This document shows positions 785 through 11,280 of a stretch of 11,280 bases of DNA, in pieces. The notes under the pieces are model-generated. The model searched no databases, was not told the DNA's origin, and worked only from the letters and a program-made list of their open reading frames with translations. The translations under genes were made by a program, and so were the position numbers. Every line of letters begins with the position of its first letter. Position 1 is the first letter of the stretch. This stretch comes from a bacterium (GTDB lineage Bacteria; CSSED10-310; JAJRTK01), in contig JAJRTK010000378.1 of the NCBI GenBank assembly GCA_024278345.1, positions 1 to 11,280 on the forward strand, in the 5' to 3' direction.

Positions 785-812
785 TTGACTTCCCTGCGTT
801 CAGGGATATACT
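785..812 (+). promoter_or_regulatory. Sigma70-like promoter of the response regulator-MoxR operon
   Basis: The -35 box is TTGACT (785-790, 5 of 6 to consensus) and the -10 box is TATACT (807-812, 5 of 6), with a 16-bp spacer. It faces the operon; transcription would begin near 819, about 200 bases before the chosen start of the first gene. It is the best promoter match I found in the window. Activity is inferred from sequence only. Confidence 0.65.
791..806. promoter_or_regulatory. Palindrome filling the promoter spacer (candidate operator)
   Basis: TCCCTG-CGTT-CAGGGA is a perfect 6-bp inverted repeat with a 4-base centre. It occupies exactly the 16 bases between the -35 and -10 boxes. A dimeric repressor or a MerR-like spacer-distorting activator could bind there; which protein, if any, is not visible from this window. 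Confidence 0.5.
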
Positions 813-1022: not shown

Positions 1023-1676
1023 ATGATCCGAAGAGAAGGGCGGAGAAACTCGATCCTCGTCGTAGATGACAGCCCCGAGCTTCTGGAATGGATGAAGTTC
1101 GATCTGGAGGACCGGGGATTCGAAGTGGCCTGTGCGTTGAGCGGCGAAGAGTGTATCGATCGGGTACGCCAGGCGCCCCCGGCCTGCATCTTACTCGATG
1201 TTATGATGCCGGGCTCGCCCTCGTTCGTGGATCTGATGGATCGGAATGAGATCCTGCTGAGACAGGGCACAATCCTTCTCAATGATTCTCTCTTCTGTTT
1301 CAAAGACGGAGTGCGGGAGCCCCTTTACGAGGCCTTGTGCTCGGAGCCAAAGGGAATCCAACTTCTAAGGGTTGAGGGTGACGGGCCAAGCACGCTCCAG
1401 CGAGCTTCGAGTCTTTACGAGATCGTTCGCCAGCAGGCATTCATCGAAAACCACGGAGTCGCCCAGATCCACCTTGACGGCTACGCCACCTGCCAGCTTC
1501 TCAAATCGTGCAAGACCTACGAAGGAATCGGAATTGTCCTCTTCACCGCCGGCGGAGCCGGCTCGAAAAACGAGCGGGCGGAACGAGCTAAACGAGCGGG
1601 GGCGTCCAGCTACATCCTCAAGTCGGAGTACTATACGGCTCTGTTTGAGGCGATTGAAGTCTTTGCCAAGGCTTGA
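1023..1676 (+). CDS. Response-regulator receiver protein with an 86-residue insertion inside the receiver domain
   Basis: This is a single-domain receiver of the CheY type, 217 aa instead of about 125. All phosphorylation-site elements are present: the acidic pair D15-D16 in ILVVDD, phosphoacceptor D59 in LLDVMMPG, T175 in VLFTA and K200 in YILKS. Between MMPG (ending at residue 64) and LDGY (from 151), which are contiguous in ordinary receivers, lies an in-frame insert (residues 65-150, bases 1215-1472). It falls in the beta3-alpha3 loop next to D59. There is no DNA-binding or enzymatic output domain after the receiver. I chose ATG 1023 because it sits directly before the first beta strand, with GGAG at 1016-1019, although that spacing is short. 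GTG 972 or 975 are alternatives without a clear ribosome site. The gene ends 23 bases before the MoxR start and is the first gene of the operon. Its role as signal input to the MoxR module is inference. Confidence 0.85.
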
Positions 1677-1699: not shown

Positions 1700-2674
1700 G
1701 TGAGCGAAAAGATGCTGAGAAAGGCGGGTGAAGTCCGCAAGCGGGTTCTCGAGGAGCTGGGCCGCGTAATTGTCGGGCAGACGGAGATCATGGAGCAGGC
1801 ACTTCTGGCTCTCATTGCGCGGGGGCATTGTCTGCTCATCGGGGTGCCGGGCCTGGCGAAGACATTGATGGTCAGTACGTTGGCACAACTTTTGGATTTG
1901 AAGTTCCAGCGAATCCAGTTTACTCCCGATCTGATGCCAGCGGACATGATTGGCACCGACATCCTTCAGGACGACCCGGAGACTGGAGAACGGCGGTTCG
2001 AGTTCTTCAAAGGGCCGGTTTTTGCGAATATGCTGCTTGCCGACGAAATCAACCGCACGCCCCCCAAGACGCAGGCGGCGCTTCTTCAGGCGATGCAGGA
2101 GCGAGAGGTCACCACTGGAGGCCGCACGTTGGTGCTGCCGCAGCCGTTTTTTGTCATGGCGACGCAAAATCCCATCGAGCAGGAGGGCACCTATCCGCTG
2201 CCGGAAGCTCAGTTGGACCGCTTCTTTTTCAGTCTGAGAGTGCAGTATCCCAGCTTGGAGGAGGAACAGCGAATGGTTCGGATGACGACGTCAATGGCGC
2301 CGCCACGATTGGAGCCGGTGTTGACGGTGGAGGAGATCTTGGAGCTCCAGGAGATGGTCTGGCGGATGCCGGTGGCGGACCACGTCATCGAGCTGGCGGT
2401 GGAGCTGGCCAGAAAAAGCCGGCCAGGCAAGGATGCTCCGGATTTCATTCGGGACTACGTGAGCTGGGGGGCGGGGCCCAGGGCGAGCCAGACGCTCATC
2501 TACGCCGCGAAGGCCAGAGCTCTCCTCTGGTCGCGGCGGTACGCATCGGAGGAAGACGTGAAGGCAGTAACGATGCCAGTTTTGGGGCACCGTATCCTGT
2601 TGAATTACCGAGGAGAAGCTGAGGGTCTGAAGGCCGAAGACATCGTGCAGCGCTTGCTCCAGGCGGCAAGTTGA
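1700..2674 (+). CDS. MoxR-family AAA+ ATPase
   Basis: The 324-aa cytoplasmic ATPase has the usual length for MoxR proteins. Walker A is GVPGLAKT (residues 48-55), Walker B MLLADE (111-116) and sensor 1 ATQNP with N157, followed by the family signature [14 protein letters not shown]. The C-terminal lid is at about 200-324, with the typical [19 protein letters not shown] stretch. MoxR ATPases couple ATP hydrolysis to maturation or remodelling of partners carrying vWA domains; the partners here are probably the three proteins encoded next. The gene is followed after 8 bases by the DUF58 gene, the standard MoxR-DUF58 pairing. GTG is chosen as start because of the AAGGAG six bases upstream. Family identity is certain; the actual client and process are not readable from sequence. 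Confidence 0.95.
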
Positions 2675-2682
2675 GGGGCCTT

Positions 2683-3621
2683 ATGAGCGGTGAAAAACAG
2701 GCGGCTTCACGGAGGCGAAGTGCCGTTGAGGAGCTGCTGGACCCGGAAGTGTTGGCCAAGGCATCTTCTCTTGCTCTTCGGGCGCGGATCGTCGTGGATG
2801 GCCTGGTAACAGGCCTCCACCGCTCCAGCATTCGCGGTCGGGATGTCGAATTTGCCGAGCACCGGGAATACTCTATCGGAGACGAGCTTCGCCACATCGA
2901 CTGGAAGGTCTATGCCCGAACAAACCGCTATTACGTGAAGCGGTTCGAGCAGGAGACGAATGCCAAGATTCAGATTCTGGTCGATTGCTCCCGCTCGATG
3001 CTCTTGGACTTGGCGGGGCGTTCGAAGCTAGATTTTGCCCGAGGCTTGGCCGCTTGCCTTTCGACGTTACTCCTTCGCCAGGGCGACGCCGTGGGGCTGA
3101 TCCTTTTCGATGCCGAGATCAGAAACCGGATTGGGGCCAAATCCCACGCGGAGCACCTCAATACGCTGTGCGAAGCCTTGACGGGCCTGGAGGCCGGACC
3201 GGACACAGACATTGCCACAAGCCTCGATGGAGTGGCCAGCGGCATGAGCCGGCGGCAGGTCATTGTGTTGATATCGGATCTTATCGATGATCCCAGGCGT
3301 GTCGTCGATGCTGTCGTTCATCTCAAGCACCGCCGGCACGACGTGACAGTGATGCAGATCCTCGACCCGGAAGAGATCCGGTTTCGTTTCCAGGGGCCGC
3401 TGCGGATTCGGGATCTGGAGTCTGGAAAAACGCTCAAGGTAGATGGCCAACGGATGAGCACGATTTATCGGACCGAAGTGGAGCGGATTCTAGAACGCTA
3501 TCGCCTGAGGTTCCATCAGGCGGGGATCGACTATTCGCTGGTGGAGACAAACCAGGATCTTTCTGAGGGGCTGCTGGCCTTCCTTTCACGGCGGTCACGG
3601 CTTCTTGGAGAGAGGCGATAG
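2683..3621 (+). CDS. DUF58 protein with vWA-like MIDAS motif
   Basis: The 312-aa soluble protein carries the DUF58 signature at residues 44-91: GLHRSSIRGRDVEFAEHREY, then GDELRHIDWKVYARTN and RYYVKRFEQE. A von Willebrand A-type fold follows, with metal-site motif D101-C-S103-R-S105 and a later VLISDLIDD strand. There is no membrane segment or signal peptide. DUF58 proteins are the regular partners of MoxR ATPases and are presumed clients or adaptors. ATG 2683 has GAGGGG at 2673-2678; an in-frame TTG at 2671 overlaps the MoxR stop but is less likely. The 20-base gap to the next gene supports one transcript. The molecular function of the family is not established. Confidence 0.93.
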   Translation: MSGEKQAASRRRSAVEELLDPEVLAKASSLALRARIVVDGLVTGLHRSSIRGRDVEFAEHREYSIGDELRHIDWKVYARTNRYYVKRFEQETNAKIQILVDCSRSMLLDLAGRSKLDFARGLAACLSTLLLRQGDAVGLILFDAEIRNRIGAKSHAEHLNTLCEALTGLEAGPDTDIATSLDGVASGMSRRQVIVLISDLIDDPRRVVDAVVHLKHRRHDVTVMQILDPEEIRFRFQGPLRIRDLESGKTLKVDGQRMSTIYRTEVERILERYRLRFHQAGIDYSLVETNQDLSEGLLAFLSRRSRLLGERR

Positions 3622-3641: not shown

Positions 3642-5627
3642 GTGAGGGTTTTGGGTCTGTCGTTTCTCAATGAAGTTCTGCTCTGGGGGGCGCTTGCCGC
3701 GGCGGTGCCAGTGGCGCTCCACCTGCTTCGAAGGCAGCGCTATAGGGAATTGCCCTTTTCGGGCTTCCTTTTCCTTTCGCGGGAAATGCGCAAAAGACTT
3801 GAGGCACGAAAGTTGTCTGAGCTCCTCTTGCTGGCCCTTCGAGTCCTTTTGGTCATCCTCATTTCGGCCTCTTTGGCGGGGCCGGAGCTCGGGGGCCTGG
3901 TCTTGTCGTCGGGTGCGACATCGCTGGCCATCGTGATGGATCAATCGGCGAGCATGGCCGTTCGGGTCGATGGGGAAACATTGTTCCATGAAGCCCGGAA
4001 GAGAGCGCGGGAGATCGTGGAAAGGGCGGCATCCGGAGATCGGATCACCCTTGTGGGCGCAGCCAGCAAGCCGGTCATCTTGGCCATGGAGGAGCAACCT
4101 GGCGGCGGAACGGTTCGGAAGATCCTGGAAGGAATGAGCCCCTTGCCGTATGGAGGAGATTTGGGGCGTGGCGTCGAAGAAGCGGAAACGATCCTGGCCG
4201 CCTCGAAGTTGCCGAACCGGAAGCTGGTTGTGCTCACCGATGGCCAGGAGCGGGTCTCGGCAGAGGCTGGAAAAGCCGACGGCGAAGTGCAGGCGGAGAT
4301 TGTAACGCTTTCAACCGGGAGTCCCGGCAACCTCTATGTGGAAGAGGTTTCACTCCCGAAGATCTTGGCGGGAGGACCGGAACACCGGCTGGGCGTCAGC
4401 GTGGCGAATGGCGGCTTGAGTCGAGTTTCGGGGTCGGTTCGAGTCAACCTCGATGGGGCCTACAGAGGCGAGCGCCTTTTGTCCTTGGGGCCTGGAGAAT
4501 CCGTGAAGGCGGACTTCGATCTTTCCGTGGAACCGGGCCTGCACGGTGGTTTCTTCGAGCTGACGGGAGACGATCTTGCCCTGGACAACCGGCGCCTGTT
4601 TCTTTTGGGCGTGGATCGGCGGCCTAGAATCGCATTGGTTGGTGCCCAGAGCGTGCGGAGGTTCGTGGAGCTCGCGCTTTCGGCAGACTCGGCGACGGAT
4701 CGCTCGGAGCTCGAAGTCCGCTCGTTCCATAGTCTGGCCCAGGTTCTGGCATCTCTTGGCCAGCGCGATTCCCCCGAAGCCCTGATCCTATGTGATCTTG
4801 GCGATTTCGACGCGGAGAAGGCAGGAAAACTGGCTCGGATTCGGGCTGCGGGACTCGGCGTGTGGGTGTTTCTTGGCCCTAAGACGATCCCCTCCCTGGT
4901 TAACGAGGCACTGGCCAGGAGCGACATCTTGCCCATCCGCCTATTGGGAAGGCAAAAGGGCGACTGGACGGCGTCGATGATGGCCAAGGCTCCGGGCCTC
5001 CTACCAAGCTCCAAGAAACTGGCACGCAGCCTTGAAGAGACACCTTTCAGTGAGCGACAACGCTTCATCTCCCGGAGTGGAGCGGCCTTGACACTTCTCT
5101 CTTATTCCGACGGTGAGCCCCTCCTTATGGAAATCCCCTCTGATCCGCCGCTTTTCGTGACGGGCAGTTCCGCGGATCGGGCTTTTGGAGAAATGGCTGT
5201 CTCCCCGTTCTTCGTGCTCATGGCGCGAAAGATCTCGTGGCGACTGATTGGAGACCGCGATTTGGGAGCTCTGGATGCCGGGACAAACTTCCTGCATCAA
5301 GAAGCTGGCCAGTGGTTTTTCTTGCGGAATCCGACAAATCTGGAAAGCGGCGGAGTTACGCCCAGCGGCGAGCTTATGCCAGGCATCTTGGTCCACAGAA
5401 GCAGGCGGAAGATCGACCAGTGGCGTGCAATTGCCCTGCCGCGGGAAGAATCGATTCTCCGTTATCCAGGCCAAACCGCCGCCCCCCAAAAAGGTCACGA
5501 TCAGGACTCGTCCCACCGGGGAAGGCGGTCTATTTCGTTGCCCTTGATCCTCTTCTGTCTGGCACTCCTTGTGGCGGAAGGGTTGTTGGCCAGCCACATA
5601 GCACAGGAAGAAACGAACTCGTCTTGA
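3642..5627 (+). CDS. Membrane-anchored BatA-like vWA protein
   Basis: The 661-aa protein opens with the 'aerotolerance regulator N-terminal' (BatA) signature: LSFLNEVLLWGALAAAVPVA with transmembrane helix 1 at about 12-29, then LLRRQRYRELPFSGFLFLSR. Helix 2 follows at about 60-79. A vWA domain has a complete MIDAS (D100-Q-S102-A-S104-M) and the later strand VVLTDGQ. The long middle part has beta-rich stretches and a flavodoxin-like region with no named domain that I recognise. A third helix lies near the C terminus (about 633-650). In this family the vWA domain is held at the membrane by these helices; which side it faces is not shown. GTG 3642 has GAGG at 3634-3637; TTG 3651 is an alternative nine bases later. 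Function in cell-envelope or stress physiology is inferred from Bat operons, not shown. Confidence 0.88.
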   Translation: MRVLGLSFLNEVLLWGALAAAVPVALHLLRRQRYRELPFSGFLFLSREMRKRLEARKLSELLLLALRVLLVILISASLAGPELGGLVLSSGATSLAIVMDQSASMAVRVDGETLFHEARKRAREIVERAASGDRITLVGAASKPVILAMEEQPGGGTVRKILEGMSPLPYGGDLGRGVEEAETILAASKLPNRKLVVLTDGQERVSAEAGKADGEVQAEIVTLSTGSPGNLYVEEVSLPKILAGGPEHRLGVSVANGGLSRVSGSVRVNLDGAYRGERLLSLGPGESVKADFDLSVEPGLHGGFFELTGDDLALDNRRLFLLGVDRRPRIALVGAQSVRRFVELALSADSATDRSELEVRSFHSLAQVLASLGQRDSPEALILCDLGDFDAEKAGKLARIRAAGLGVWVFLGPKTIPSLVNEALARSDILPIRLLGRQKGDWTASMMAKAPGLLPSSKKLARSLEETPFSERQRFISRSGAALTLLSYSDGEPLLMEIPSDPPLFVTGSSADRAFGEMAVSPFFVLMARKISWRLIGDRDLGALDAGTNFLHQEAGQWFFLRNPTNLESGGVTPSGELMPGILVHRSRRKIDQWRAIALPREESILRYPGQTAAPQKGHDQDSSHRGRRSISLPLILFCLALLVAEGLLASHIAQEETNSS

Positions 5628-5700: not shown

Positions 5701-7899
5701 ATGGCGACCATCTCTTTCGAAGGTTTGACTCCGTGGGCCGCCGCCGCGCTGGCAACGGCGGTCTGCCTCTTGCTGGCCTGGCGGTACCGATCATCCCTTC
5801 GGCATCTTCCCCACCGCCGGCTGGCCATCCTGAGCCTCCTCCGAGCCGCGACGGTGCTGGGCCTGGTTTGGGCGGCCCTCCTGCCGACTCGGACCGAGCA
5901 GCTTGTGGAGCCGGTGCCCCGGAGGATTGCGGTCCTGCTGGATGGATCTCTGAGCATGGAGCTGCCGGCTGCGGAAAATAAAGGCGCCCGAACAACAAAC
6001 AGGCAAAATGGATCCACCGGGAAAAGCCGTTTGGCCGTCGCAAAAGAACTCCTGGGAGAGCTTGAGAAACTCCCCCTCAGGTTGGATCTCTTCAGTTTTT
6101 CCGGAGAGTTCGTTCGGGGCACCAAAGTGAAGCCGGGTCCCACGGACCTCTACGGGGCTCTTGAAACAGTGGAATCCAGGAGTGCTGGAACGCCTTACGC
6201 GGCCATTCTCTTGCTCACCGATGGCCGCGCCACCGATGCCCCGGGAAGGCCGATTTCGACCCCGGTCTACGCGGTTCCGCTGGGGCCCACTGAGAACCAG
6301 GATCTCGCTATCGCCTGCGATGCGCTTCCATCACGGGTTCTGCCCGAAGAAACGATCCGGATAGACTGTCGAGCCTTTCGCTCAAGCCAGGCCATGGGGG
6401 AAGTGATGGTAGAGCTTGCCGGCGAAAACGAAAACCTCCGGGAACGGCGCCTGAAATTCGAGACCGATGAATGGAAAAAGAGCTTCTCCCTGGATCTTAC
6501 ACCGAAGCGCGAAGGGCTTCTTGAGGTTCGCGTCACCATTGGCCCCGCGGAGGGTGGCACACAAGAAACTCGAACCGACCTAAAACACGACGCCCCCACA
6601 AGCCGGGACGTCGTGCCACTCAATGATACGATCGACCTGGTGACGCACGCGGCTCCCTCCAAAACAAGGGTATTGGTGCTAGCTTCAAGAGCCAGCGAAG
6701 AAGCAGCTTTCGTGGCGCGGGAACTGGAGCGGCAGGCTGATCTTGAGGTTGTTCGAGCCATTCAGCTTCCCCGTGACCGCATCCTCCTGGCTGACGGAAC
6801 CATCAGATCGGCAGCGGAAATCAAACCCCTCCACCGGTACGCGGCCATCGTCATTACCGGTGCGCCGGCCATCAACACCTTCTCCGAGGAGTTGGCGGAA
6901 ACTGTGCGACAAGGCGGAGGTCTCCTCCTCATGGGCGATTCTGACGCCCCAAGCCGTTTCTTGGCGCTTCGGGACTTGCTTCCTCTCGATCTCCGCCAGG
7001 CCACGGAAAAACGGGGCCGCTTTACTGCCAGCCTCGGGCCACGTGCCCGGAACCACCCGATCCTGAAGTTCCTGGAGGATCTTCCCGACAGCGCGTATAG
7101 CCCGGCAGCTTTGCCTCCTCTGGAGTGGACTTGGGCAAGGGCATCGCCAAAGCCCGGCACCACTGTCTTGATGGAAGCTGGAGAGCCTGCCGATCCCTGG
7201 CCCCTGCTGAGCCTTGAGCGATACGGCCAGGGCCGGGTCGCCCTCGTGAGCGGAGGCCCTTTCTGGAGCTGGCGCTTCCAGCCCGTGGGGATGGGAAGCG
7301 GCAAGGAAGAGCTCTTCATCCGCCTCCTTCCCAGGCTGCTGCGCTGGACTGCCATGAGCGGAGAATTCGACCAGTACGGCCTTGCCCTACGGGAAGAGGG
7401 GAGAATACTGGAAGTTCAGGTTTCCGAACTCAAAGAGGATTTGACTCCAGCCGTGGGAAACCGCGTCAAGCTCCACCTGTTCCGCTTGGAACGAGGAGGT
7501 TCCCGCACTCTTGTGCAGCGCACCGAGGTCACTCTGGGAAGCGGGGGAAGCGCCATCTGGCGGCCGCGCATCAAAGGCCGAGGTATCTTCCTCTTGGAGG
7601 CCACGTACGCCGATGGCTCCGTGACGCGCCAAGAGGTCGTAGCCATGGGACTGCCCGAAGGGGAGTTAAACTGGACCCACGCCGACCGGCAACGCCTCCA
7701 GGCATTGGCCCACGCCACGGGAGGTCGCCTCTTGGAGCGCGCCGAGGTCGCCGCAGTCCTCCAGGAGTTCTCCCAAAGTGGATCACACCGGATCTCCATC
7801 CACAAAACACCACTCTGGGCCGATCCTCGCCTTTTGGCACTCCTTCTCTTCCTGCTCTGTGCCGAATGGGCACTCCGGAAACTCTGGGCGTTGCCATGA
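5701..7899 (+). CDS. Membrane vWA protein with glutamine-amidotransferase-like domain
   Basis: The 732-aa protein has two N-terminal transmembrane helices (about 12-27 and 41-61) and then a vWA domain with MIDAS D81-G-S83-L-S85 and a LLLTDGRATD strand. A beta-rich (Ig-like) middle follows, then a class I glutamine-amidotransferase-like fold at about 322-425 (TRVLVLASRASEEAAFVARE, then YAAIVITGAPAINTF and GGGLLLMGD). No cysteine nucleophile stands at the usual elbow, so a catalytic amidotransferase is unlikely. A last hydrophobic segment is near 709-724. Large membrane proteins of this build close many MoxR-DUF58-BatA operons. The ATG at 5701 follows a 73-base gap with no clear ribosome site, so translation may be weaker or the start slightly different. 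Its role is probably as another MoxR-system partner. Confidence 0.85.
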   Translation: MATISFEGLTPWAAAALATAVCLLLAWRYRSSLRHLPHRRLAILSLLRAATVLGLVWAALLPTRTEQLVEPVPRRIAVLLDGSLSMELPAAENKGARTTNRQNGSTGKSRLAVAKELLGELEKLPLRLDLFSFSGEFVRGTKVKPGPTDLYGALETVESRSAGTPYAAILLLTDGRATDAPGRPISTPVYAVPLGPTENQDLAIACDALPSRVLPEETIRIDCRAFRSSQAMGEVMVELAGENENLRERRLKFETDEWKKSFSLDLTPKREGLLEVRVTIGPAEGGTQETRTDLKHDAPTSRDVVPLNDTIDLVTHAAPSKTRVLVLASRASEEAAFVARELERQADLEVVRAIQLPRDRILLADGTIRSAAEIKPLHRYAAIVITGAPAINTFSEELAETVRQGGGLLLMGDSDAPSRFLALRDLLPLDLRQATEKRGRFTASLGPRARNHPILKFLEDLPDSAYSPAALPPLEWTWARASPKPGTTVLMEAGEPADPWPLLSLERYGQGRVALVSGGPFWSWRFQPVGMGSGKEELFIRLLPRLLRWTAMSGEFDQYGLALREEGRILEVQVSELKEDLTPAVGNRVKLHLFRLERGGSRTLVQRTEVTLGSGGSAIWRPRIKGRGIFLLEATYADGSVTRQEVVAMGLPEGELNWTHADRQRLQALAHATGGRLLERAEVAAVLQEFSQSGSHRISIHKTPLWADPRLLALLLFLLCAEWALRKLWALP

Positions 7900-8119: not shown

Positions 8120-8949
8120 CCAATGCCAACTCCCATCAACACCCCCTGCGGATCACGAGTCCTCGGAATCAACGCCTGCGAGGCGCCTTCGCCCTCTACC
8201 GCAAGCGGGAACGGCGGCGCCACGGGACAACACTCTTGGAAGGCGTCCGCCTGATTCTCGATGCTCTGGAGAGCAGTTTGGCCGTGGAAACACTCTTTCT
8301 GGACCGGGGACTGGATACGAAATCGCGGGAAAAACTCCTGGACGCCGCCAGAAGAAGAAACCTCCCCGAAAATGGCTGCTGGGAAGTGGAAGCCGGCCTC
8401 CTGACATCGCTCAGTGAGCTGGAGACCCCCCCCGGAGCCGCGGCCGTCGCCCAGGTCCCCAATGCAAGCCTCCGGGATCTCCTAGGGCACTCTCCGTTGG
8501 TGGTGGGACACGGGATTCAGGAGCCGGGCAACATCGGGGCAATCCTGAGAGTCGCCGCCGGGCTCGGCGCTGGCGGAGTCGTCGTGACCGGCGGCTGCGA
8601 TCCCTTCTCACCCAAGGCAATCCGAGGCTCCAGCGGGGCGGTCTTCCGCATTCCCATTGTGGTCTGGCGAAAAGGCCTTGGCCCCCTTTGCCAACGGCTT
8701 CTGGACGAATCCTACGACCTTCTGGCAGCCGATCCGGCCGGAGAATTGAGCCACCGGGAAATGGGACCTGCTACTGGGCCAATCGCCTTGCTCCTGGGCA
8801 GCGAGGCCCACGGGTTCCAGCAAGCGCTGCCCACGGGAGAAAAGTTAACCAAGGTCCGAATCGCTCTGGCCGGCGGCGTCGAAAGCCTGAACGTCGCCGT
8901 GGCTGCCGGGATTCTACTGGATCGGCTGGCGGGTAGTGGCTCCTTGTGA
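8116..8949 (+). CDS. SpoU/TrmH-family RNA 2'-O-methyltransferase
   Basis: The 277-aa SPOUT-class enzyme transfers methyl from S-adenosylmethionine to a ribose 2'-OH in rRNA or tRNA. An N-terminal RNA-binding domain (about 11-115: SPRNQRLRGAFALYRKRE and LLEGVRLILDAL) precedes the trefoil-knot catalytic domain. Motif 1 is EPGNIGAILRVA with N139 and R145. The middle signature is SPKAIRGSSGAVFRIPI, motif 2 LLLGSEAHGF and motif 3 GGVESLNVAVAAGILL. The length fits the family. ATG 8116 is preferred (GGAG at 8101-8104, spacing 11); GTG 8104 is an alternative. It is the first gene after the vWA operon, on the same strand, with its own 216-base spacer, so linkage to that operon is doubtful. The exact RNA target cannot be told from sequence. 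Confidence 0.92.
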   Translation: MTNANSHQHPLRITSPRNQRLRGAFALYRKRERRRHGTTLLEGVRLILDALESSLAVETLFLDRGLDTKSREKLLDAARRRNLPENGCWEVEAGLLTSLSELETPPGAAAVAQVPNASLRDLLGHSPLVVGHGIQEPGNIGAILRVAAGLGAGGVVVTGGCDPFSPKAIRGSSGAVFRIPIVVWRKGLGPLCQRLLDESYDLLAADPAGELSHREMGPATGPIALLLGSEAHGFQQALPTGEKLTKVRIALAGGVESLNVAVAAGILLDRLAGSGSL

Positions 8950-8953
8950 AGAA

Positions 8954-9163
8954 ATCCCCATGAGCAAGACGGGCCAATGCCGCCAAGAAACAAGTGGTGA
9001 TGGCTGCGCCTTCGTGGTCTTCCAGTTTCTTATGGATGGCCAAGGCTTGATGATAGGCGGCCTGAGCCTCTGGGATTTCCCCTTGACGGTAACAACTCGA
9101 AGTCCCGCATTTGATGCTCTTGGCCGCCCAGCTCCCCAAGCTGCCATCGACCTTCGGCATCAC
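8954..9163 (-). pseudogene. TPR tail remnant of a kinase-AAA-TPR protein
   Basis: Read on the minus strand from GTG 9163, residues 25-70 are YRQGEIPEAQAAYHQALAIH and then a helix ending ...LARLAHGD. This is a clear tetratricopeptide pattern (G-x-x-x-E-A, Y-x-x-A-L-x-I), normally one of many repeats in the C-terminal half of kinase-AAA-TPR proteins. The frame differs from the kinase fragment, whose stop overlaps this GTG by 4 bases (GTGA). After HGD the frame runs straight into the antisense of the methyltransferase stop region (8947-8949) and stays open without family character. The true C terminus is therefore missing. It is best read as the surviving tail after an internal deletion. Confidence 0.6.
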
Positions 9164-10263
9164 ACCACAAGAGCCCCTCGTCTACACTGGCACGTATTCA
9201 CCGCCTCGCAAGCGAACTCGGCCAACAGGCGGGTCTTCCCCACCCCGCTTTCACCTCCCACAAGAAGGAACTTGACCTCCTCCTCAGAAAGAGCAAGGGG
9301 AAGACGATCCCGCAACCACGCCAATTCTCTGCTCCGACCTCCGAAATCAGGGCGGTACAGGTAAGGGAGGGGGCGGGACCCTGGTGTACTGCCGTTGCTC
9401 ACTCCCACTGATCTCAGAGTCCGGGCGACGCTCAGGGCGTGTCCCAGGCGCTTGTGTGGTTCCTTCTCCAGAAGGCGCAACGCCAGGCCATCAAGCTCTT
9501 CTGGAAGACCAATAGCCCATTCCGATGGCCGCCGTGGCCGCGAGTGCAGATGCATATGCAGGAGCTGAGCAGGGGTTTCGGCCACAAAAGGCGGGCTACC
9601 GGTCAGGATTTCGTAAAGAATGCAGCCAAGGGCATAGAGGTCGGCGCGAGCATCACACAATCCGCCCCGCACTTGCTCCGGGGCCATGTAGGGGGCCGTA
9701 CCGGCTGGATGGCCAGAGATTTGTAACGCCTCCCGGGAGAGTTTGCCTCCAAACTGCTGAGTCAGCCCGAAGTCCACGATCACTGGCTGGCCCCTCTCAG
9801 TAACCAGAACGTTCTCTGGCTTGAGGTCGAGATGCACAATCCCCTCGCCATGGAGATAAGCCAAGGGGTGGCAAAGGCAGCGGACCAAAGTAAGGGCGGG
9901 CAAAACGGAAGCCGAAAAAGCATTCGGGGCAGCCCATGGTGGCCCGGAGAACGCCCCAGGGTCATCGACCAGGCCACTCCGATCTTCCGACGGGCAGGAA
10001 TGTTGCCCCAAGGATCCAGCGCCCAGGGATTCAGTCCACCAAGAAGGCGCGGACCACGAAGTCATCCGAGCCTCCTCCGATGATTCTGTTTTCACGGCTC
10101 CCACATTCTTGCGCCCTGGAACCCAGTGCCGAAGGGAGTGGCCTTCCACGAGTTCCATGGCGTACCAGGGAAGACCTTTCTCCACTCCCTCTTGGAGAAT
10201 CTGCACGATGTTCGGATGCCGTAGCCGAGCCAGCGTCTGGATCTCCCGGCGAAGGAAAGGAAC
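9160..10263 (-). pseudogene. Ser/Thr protein kinase lacking its N-lobe, fused to the start of an AAA ATPase domain
   Basis: The frame opens after TGA 10264-10266 and reads VPFLRREIQTLARLRHPNIV, the alpha-C helix region of Hanks-type kinases. The glycine loop and the ATP-binding VAIK lysine are absent. The C-lobe is intact: catalytic loop HLDLKPEN (9811-9834; L replaces the usual R of HRD), metal-binding VDFG, and GTAPYMAPEQ. About 55-60 extra residues, rich in Ser/Pro/Gly, sit between the hinge (MELVEGHSL) and helix E. After the kinase comes the opening of an AAA_16-type ATPase: FGGRSREL and Walker A GGESGVGKT (9232-9258). It then stops at 9160-9162 where several hundred more residues would be expected. 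ATP binding by the kinase should be lost. The only in-frame start is GTG 10206, inside the kinase fold. Sequencing error cannot explain the missing N-lobe. Confidence 0.75.
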
Positions 10264-10308: not shown

Positions 10309-11280
10309 TCACGCCAGACCGAAAAAATCATAGCCATCTCTCTTCAGCCGCTTGAGCCTCGAACGGAAGGTGCTCACAGGCAAACCACAAATAACCGCGG
10401 TTTTTGATAGATCCGCCTTGCTCCCACCGCCTCTGATGTTCTTGGTGCCTGCTTCAGAGCGTGCAACATCTGTTCGTACCAACTGTTTCGGGTGCTCTTG
10501 TGAGTCGAATACCCAGGGGGCGGAATCGTGGAGGAACCCGGGGAGATCGCCTGAGCAACCCGCGGAAATGCCTCGGCGCTCCAACTGGAAGGACCACCTA
10601 GGTCCGGCACTTCCCCATCATCGGCGCCATCTCGTCCCATGCTGGCCAACTCTTCCCGCACATCCTGGCCGGTGATGACGCCACTGGAGCTCTCCGCATG
10701 AACGATCAACCGTTTGATGAAGTGCCGAAGCTGCCGCACATTCCCCTGGCTCCACGGATGCTCGTAGAGCAGAATCAACGCTGCCTCCTCCACGTTTCCG
10801 GCAAACCCGAACTCCTTGAGAAAGTAATCGACGAAATCCTCAAGATCCTCTTTCCTCCTGCAGAGTGGAGGTATGTGAATCTCGAATCCATTGATCCGGC
10901 AGAGTAGATCCAGGCGGAATTCCCCCCTATCGACCATCTCCTGAAGGTTTTTGTTGGTGGTCACAATGAGTAAGCCCTGGAACCTCTTTCTGTGCTTCGG
11001 ATCCCCAACGGCATAGAACTCCCGCTCCTGAACCGCTCGAAGGAGCTTGCCTTGCAGTCCCAACTCCAGGTCCCCTATCTCCTCCAAGACAAGGGTTCCC
11101 GCCCCAACGTCTTCCAGGATCCCCGGCTTCCCTTTTACGCCCGTGGCAGTCCCGCTGGCGATGCCAAACAGTTCCGTCTCCAAAAGATTCGGTGGGATGG
11201 ATGGGGGATCCACGTAAGACGGGACAAAACAGGAAAAGAAGAGGGAAAACGCGAAGCGTACAAGAATGTGGGTCCAGGGA
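10309..11280 (-). pseudogene. Sigma54-activator-type AAA+ regulator, degenerate and frameshifted, 5' end outside the window
   Basis: In the frame open from the right edge to 10374 the AAA+ core of bacterial enhancer-binding proteins is clear: PPNLLETELFG, GTLVLEEIGDL (Walker B with Glu for the usual first Asp), FRLDLLCRINGFEIHIPPL (arginine finger region) and HPWSQGNVRQLRHFIKRLIV. The sigma54-contact loop GAFTGA is replaced by GTATGV (11136-11153), so sigma54 activation is unlikely. The first frame ends without a DNA-binding domain. The adjacent frame, from about 10446 to 10309, supplies a Fis-type helix-turn-helix: ADLSKTAVICGLPVSTFR then SRLKRL. A one-base loss near 10446 would join the two. 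The Walker A lies beyond the edge or is lost: bases 11214-11280 read poorly. It points towards the truncated kinase, so the two may once have been co-transcribed. Confidence 0.7.

Follow-up and report, generated by a model that had tools for sequence, protein, structure and literature searches.

Genes and features of the locus

The window, that is, the whole 11,280-nt stretch of DNA analysed here, starts at base 1 of contig 309 and carries on the forward strand a gene for a 217-residue response regulator receiver with an internal insert (1023..1676; ATG start, TGA stop). A TTGGAG-type ribosome site lies directly 5' of this gene, and a motif match to a sigma-70-like promoter (TTGACT-16-TATACT; 785..812, forward strand), suggestive only, is found further upstream. 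The DNA upstream of the receiver gene is poorly coding up to the contig end.

On its 3' side, the receiver gene is followed on the same strand by a moxR cluster, which comprises genes for a moxR-type AAA+ ATPase (1700..2674; Pfam AAA_3, 4.8e-62), a DUF58 protein (2683..3621) and a BatA-N/VWA protein (3642..5627), the latter two also assigned by Pfam, as well as for a large protein with no confident Pfam match (5701..7899). The moxR gene begins 23 bp downstream of the receiver gene, and the two are probably co-transcribed. In the 1.5 kb preceding each of the other moxR loci that we found in this phylum, a motif scan detected no receiver; the receiver-moxR linkage is thus particular to this genome, and a receiver-moxR operon shared across the phylum is ruled out.

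An 86-residue insert splits a catalytically complete receiver

The 217-residue protein matches the Pfam Response_reg family (PF00072) in two stretches, scoring 53.7 bits (curated cut-off, 30.2). Its N-terminal receiver part (residues 10-64; 1050..1214, forward strand) comprises the beta1-alpha1-beta2-alpha2-beta3 elements and the MMPG turn, and its C-terminal part (residues 151-217; 1473..1673, forward strand) comprises alpha3-beta4-alpha4-beta5-alpha5. Between them, as delimited by the alignment and the AF2 model described below, lies an insert of 86 residues (65-150; 1215..1472, forward strand). The insert measures 258 nt and is in frame, with the translation from the ATG at 1023 reading through ILLDVMMPG directly into the 86 inserted residues. 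It is preceded by Pro-Gly (D+4/D+5, counted from the phospho-acceptor aspartate) and followed by the Leu-Asp-Gly that opens helix alpha3. The initial annotation had proposed an in-frame insertion splitting a receiver by its phosphorylation site, and its coordinates, frame and length are all borne out. A frameshift or assembly artefact is ruled out, as no stop interrupts the reading frame and a second, independent genome (G003, see below) contains the same architecture.

The catalytic set of the receiver is complete (D15, D16, D59, T175 and K200), and its members survive on both sides of the insert at the places first assigned to them. Read from the translation, the acidic pair D15-D16 of the Mg2+ site is encoded at 1065..1070, the predicted phospho-acceptor D59 at 1197..1199, T175 at 1545-1547 and K200 at 1620-1622, all on the forward strand. 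In an alignment of 49 sequences (this protein, its relative from G003 and 47 other receivers), D16, D59 and K200 are invariant, and D+5 and D+6 form clear-cut borders of the insert. The proline of the gamma-turn is kept, and the switch aromatic is a tyrosine at K-3.

Bacterial receivers show only small differences in loop length, with proline at D+4 in 88% and glycine at D+8 in 91% of cases (PMC8510515). The distance from the aspartate to this glycine is 8 in 45 and 9 in 2 of the 47 other receivers in our alignment, as opposed to 94 in the 217-residue protein and 95 in its relative. The 217-residue protein therefore retains the proline at D+4 of the ordinary loop, whereas the equivalent glycine is found at D+94. 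Both family members also differ from other receivers on the opposite, beta4-alpha4 side of the active site: the T-to-K spacing is 25, against a usual 22, and the residues after the lysine are Ser/Asn-Glu-Tyr-Tyr, replacing the common proline. Judged from the sequences, the longer T-to-K stretch and the replaced proline would fit an adapted active-site face. We also observed a 22-nt tandem near-repeat (77%) at 1568-1611, inside the alpha4 coding region, which may be the source of part of the longer T-to-K stretch.

In base composition, the insert resembles its surroundings (GC/GC3 of 0.55/0.66, compared with 0.58/0.69-0.70 in the flanks), and a search for repeats at its edges found none. The matching composition and the lack of edge repeats speak against a recent mobile insertion.

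The insert is rare, and homologous across two families

A single full-length homologue (E 4e-40) is encoded in the 9.2-Mb genome G003, which belongs to a different family of the same phylum. The two proteins share 37-38% identity over their whole length, and the start codon of the 217-residue receiver corresponds to the equivalent codon in the relative. The G003 protein carries an insert of 87 residues at the same position, i.e., with a length difference of 1 residue. When the two inserts alone were compared (86 versus 87 residues), they aligned with one internal gap and a z of about 9-10, a score that none of 5000 shuffles reached (0/5000). By this sequence comparison, the two inserts are homologous in their own right. 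The family has two known members, too few to reveal residue-level constraint on the insert.

A search of the genome that contains the window (6.06 Mb in 550 contigs) returned the 217-residue protein as the only copy with the insert. Six other genomes of the phylum that we searched, some with a completeness of just 60-86%, contained no carrier. The same is true of the rest of a set of 386 genomes, drawn for the most part from across the domain, in a search that recovered both known members. Beyond these two, the weak matches of that search mostly covered the C-terminal part of the receiver, and we regarded them as ordinary receivers. No carrier appeared either in samples of four additional phyla (247, 235, 317 and 95 genomes), in 18 named genomes or in viral contigs, all of these being searches that had no internal positive control. 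Three long contig matches (L032, L039 and L050) were ruled out as insert carriers, as they represent tandem ordinary receivers. Taken at the level of sequence, the insert is old enough to span two families, in frame and at near-constant length, but it is rare.

This very narrow distribution, with two genomes only among those searched, would fit the view of the insert as a neutral passenger, namely an accidental insertion that the fold tolerated in one lineage and that has since been drifting. Yet frame, length (86 versus 87 residues) and homologous sequence have been kept across two families at the overall identity given above, and at such divergence an unconstrained insert would be expected to be lost or unrecognisable; moreover, the insert is confidently predicted to be folded (see below). 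We consider a neutral passenger very improbable, and this explanation is already largely refuted. The specific case of a recent accident, which would have left close relatives without the insert, is ruled out by the homologous insert kept in another family, together with the lack of boundary repeats and the matching composition.

The gene neighbourhoods of the two family members differ: the moxR cluster is absent from the G003 locus, the histidine kinase of that locus is absent in the window, and there is no shared partner gene. In G003, the insert-bearing regulator is the last in an order of four genes, preceded by those for a REC-PAS-GGDEF-EAL protein, a HAMP-GAF-PAS histidine kinase (HisKA-HATPase) and an ornithine carbamoyltransferase (OTCase). 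The gaps are 51 bp between the kinase and OTCase genes and 7 bp between the OTCase and regulator genes. The kinase gene in this apparent operon lends support to the G003 protein being a real two-component regulator. No close relative of this kinase stands out in the window's genome (best E 9e-27; assembly 88% complete). The gene between kinase and regulator, annotated as an ornithine/aspartate carbamoyltransferase, lies at 8812-9783 of L110 (G003 contig 258). Carbamoyl phosphate is a small phosphodonor for receivers, so the proximity of the carbamoyltransferase gene to that of the regulator could be more than chance.

The insert is predicted to fold as a separate module

The initial annotation had called for a structure prediction of the 217-residue protein, to see whether the receiver folds around a separate module. 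The best AF2 model, computed from the 49-sequence alignment, has a mean pLDDT of 90.4 and a pTM of 0.86 (range of pLDDT over five models, 76.8 to 90.4); over the insert region this alignment contains two sequences only, the 47 added ones being ordinary receivers. With the two family members alone, the pLDDT is 50, and the addition of the 47 ordinary receivers results in a confident model. The receiver part displays the full beta1-to-alpha5 order of the (beta-alpha)5 fold. Aligned across the insert with VIA-align 2, it superposes on RR468 (3gl9; Z 20.4, 1.4 Å, 121 residues) and on DivK (1m5t; Z 19.7, 1.5 Å, 121 residues), indicating that, in the prediction, the core is undisturbed by the insert. 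The VIA-align matches were filled by receivers and are uninformative on the fold of the insert itself.

In the model, the insert forms a compact alpha+beta module, with a block pLDDT of about 77-94. It starts with two short helices (68-74 and 76-81) and a hairpin (90-94/97-100), continues with four helices (101-106, 109-115, 124-136 and 138-144), and ends in a strand (146-149) that leads back into alpha3. The prediction thus combines an intact receiver with a compact insert. It supports the view that the beta3-alpha3 loop of a receiver with its full catalytic set has taken up a domain, which is predicted to fold as a separate module. Of the two outcomes that the initial annotation had named as refuting, neither was obtained, as a relative keeps the insert and the predicted receiver does adopt its fold.

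The insert gave no significant sequence match in Pfam, NCBIfam, PHROG or PDB. Weak PDB sequence matches (ADP-ribosyltransferase, E 0.7) were treated as chance, and a ClpP-like origin was unsupported by the sequence searches. Pfam recognised no other domain in the 217-residue protein or in its G003 relative.

Comparison with other receivers and related folds

Single-domain receivers such as CheY, Spo0F and DivK (PF00072) share with the 217-residue protein the DD/D/T/K site, the gamma-turn proline, the tyrosine at K-3 and the (beta-alpha)5 fold, as well as the lack of a C-terminal output domain. The 217-residue protein differs from them by the 86-residue, predicted folded insert between D+5 and D+6, by a T-to-K stretch that is 3 residues longer, and by Ser/Asn in place of the proline after the lysine. 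The initial annotation knew of no standard receiver subfamily with a domain at this point, and this holds across the Pfam/NCBIfam-type family searches and the literature covered; in the open-access literature, we found no active receiver described as having a domain inserted in its beta3alpha3 loop. Pseudo-receivers also depart from ordinary receivers in the beta3alpha3 region, which is a main site of their divergence, but they are missing key catalytic residues (PMC12632262), whereas the 217-residue protein keeps all of them plus the gamma-turn proline.

The closest precedents found are fungal receivers, including Ssk1 and the group VII/VIII/XI/XIII hybrid kinases, which are likewise enlarged by internal loop inserts (PMC8510515). 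These large inserts (10 or more residues) occupy the alpha2beta3 and alpha3beta4 loops, with disorder predicted for them; the one in Ssk1 averages 38 residues and is invisible in the Ssk1 crystal structure (PMC8510515). The insert described here differs from them in being bacterial, 86 residues long, located in the beta3alpha3 loop and predicted to be folded. As the fungal inserts have been hypothesised to bind targets (PMC8510515), the present one might similarly serve as a specificity element for a kinase or partner, in the form of a docking surface or dimerisation module that stays static upon phosphorylation. The Ssk1 inserts, however, are Pro/Ser-rich, disordered and in a different loop from the folded module predicted here, and we regard a static specificity element as unlikely.

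A likeness in arrangement is offered by the HAD phosphatases with C1 caps, which have a Rossmann-like core with a phospho-accepting aspartate and, placed within this core after the catalytic aspartate, an additional domain. Such caps represent insertions into the HAD core (PMC8475336), and HAD cores and CheY have a common active-site geometry (PMC8475336, citing Ridder and Dijkstra 1999). The comparison is an analogy of arrangement and of working only, not one of membership: by sequence and predicted fold, the 217-residue protein is a receiver, with no Pfam HAD match and without the general acid aspartate at D+2 of the DxD motif I (D59-V60-M61).

Proposed role of the insert

By analogy with the C1 caps, the insert could act as an active-site cap that governs whether kinase, phosphatase or water can reach D59, and thereby sets the rate or lifetime of phosphorylation. 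This is the main rival to a module that responds to phosphorylation. It is favoured by the exit of the insert two residues past the gamma-turn proline, beside the phosphorylation site, and by the extended T-to-K stretch that faces it in both members. With a cap alone, however, the protein would still lack an output module (which single-domain regulators such as Spo0F and CheY do not need), and the HAD sequence signature is absent, with methionine at D+2. Overall, we view a cap as possible, though not probable.

The best reading, to which we give about an even chance, is a stand-alone, phosphorylatable response regulator in which the insert inside the receiver is an output or partner-docking module that is shifted by phosphorylation. 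The sole module beyond the receiver would then sit in the beta3-alpha3 (gamma-turn) loop, not attached at the C-terminus. D59 would be phosphorylated by a histidine kinase, such as the one encoded two genes upstream in G003. Because the insert is anchored on both sides of the gamma-turn, next to D59, phosphorylation would be expected to shift it, and the shifted insert would change its binding, thus acting as an output or partner-docking module. As neither protein contains another recognisable output domain, the strongest candidate for such a module is the insert itself. Given its position, the insert may sense or gate phosphorylation, as the initial annotation had proposed, and a direct coupling of the insert to the phospho-aspartate, or a capping of it, is plausible. 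More tentatively, and again in analogy to the HAD C1 caps, an output or cap domain in the beta3-alpha3 loop might couple phospho-aspartate formation and module movement directly at the active site, bypassing the alpha4-beta5-alpha5 face.

Receivers are among the most abundant signalling domains of bacteria. The split receiver looks like a working variant of this very common switch, as a distant relative has retained this module at an identical position. The retention of a folded domain right after the phosphorylation site, in a receiver whose catalytic residues are all present, implies that the beta3-alpha3 loop can tolerate and retain a domain. The split receiver thus provides a natural system for studying direct coupling from an active site to a module, and the loop is a possible insertion point for engineered phospho-switches.

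Other features of the window

Positions 1-1000 of the window contain no convincing coding sequence, with two ORFs (3-344 and 563-988) that have no Pfam match above the cut-off. At the other end, on the reverse strand, an ORF for a Ser/Thr kinase (9160-10206) aligns with the kinase profile from position 103 onwards only; it continues into the beginning of an AAA_16 ATPase domain and ends there. It is followed, in a separate ORF, by a TPR fragment (8771-9163). The region 8771-10206 has the appearance of a kinase-AAA-TPR gene that has decayed or suffered an internal deletion. Also on the reverse strand, a sigma-54 activator AAA+ fragment (10309-11279) is matched from profile position 58 and has GTATGV where the GAFTGA loop would be expected. 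A weak match (E 0.004) to a possible C-terminal helix-turn-helix at 10309-10584 overlaps it in a different frame, and the sequence of this region suggests a frameshifted or degenerate activator gene.
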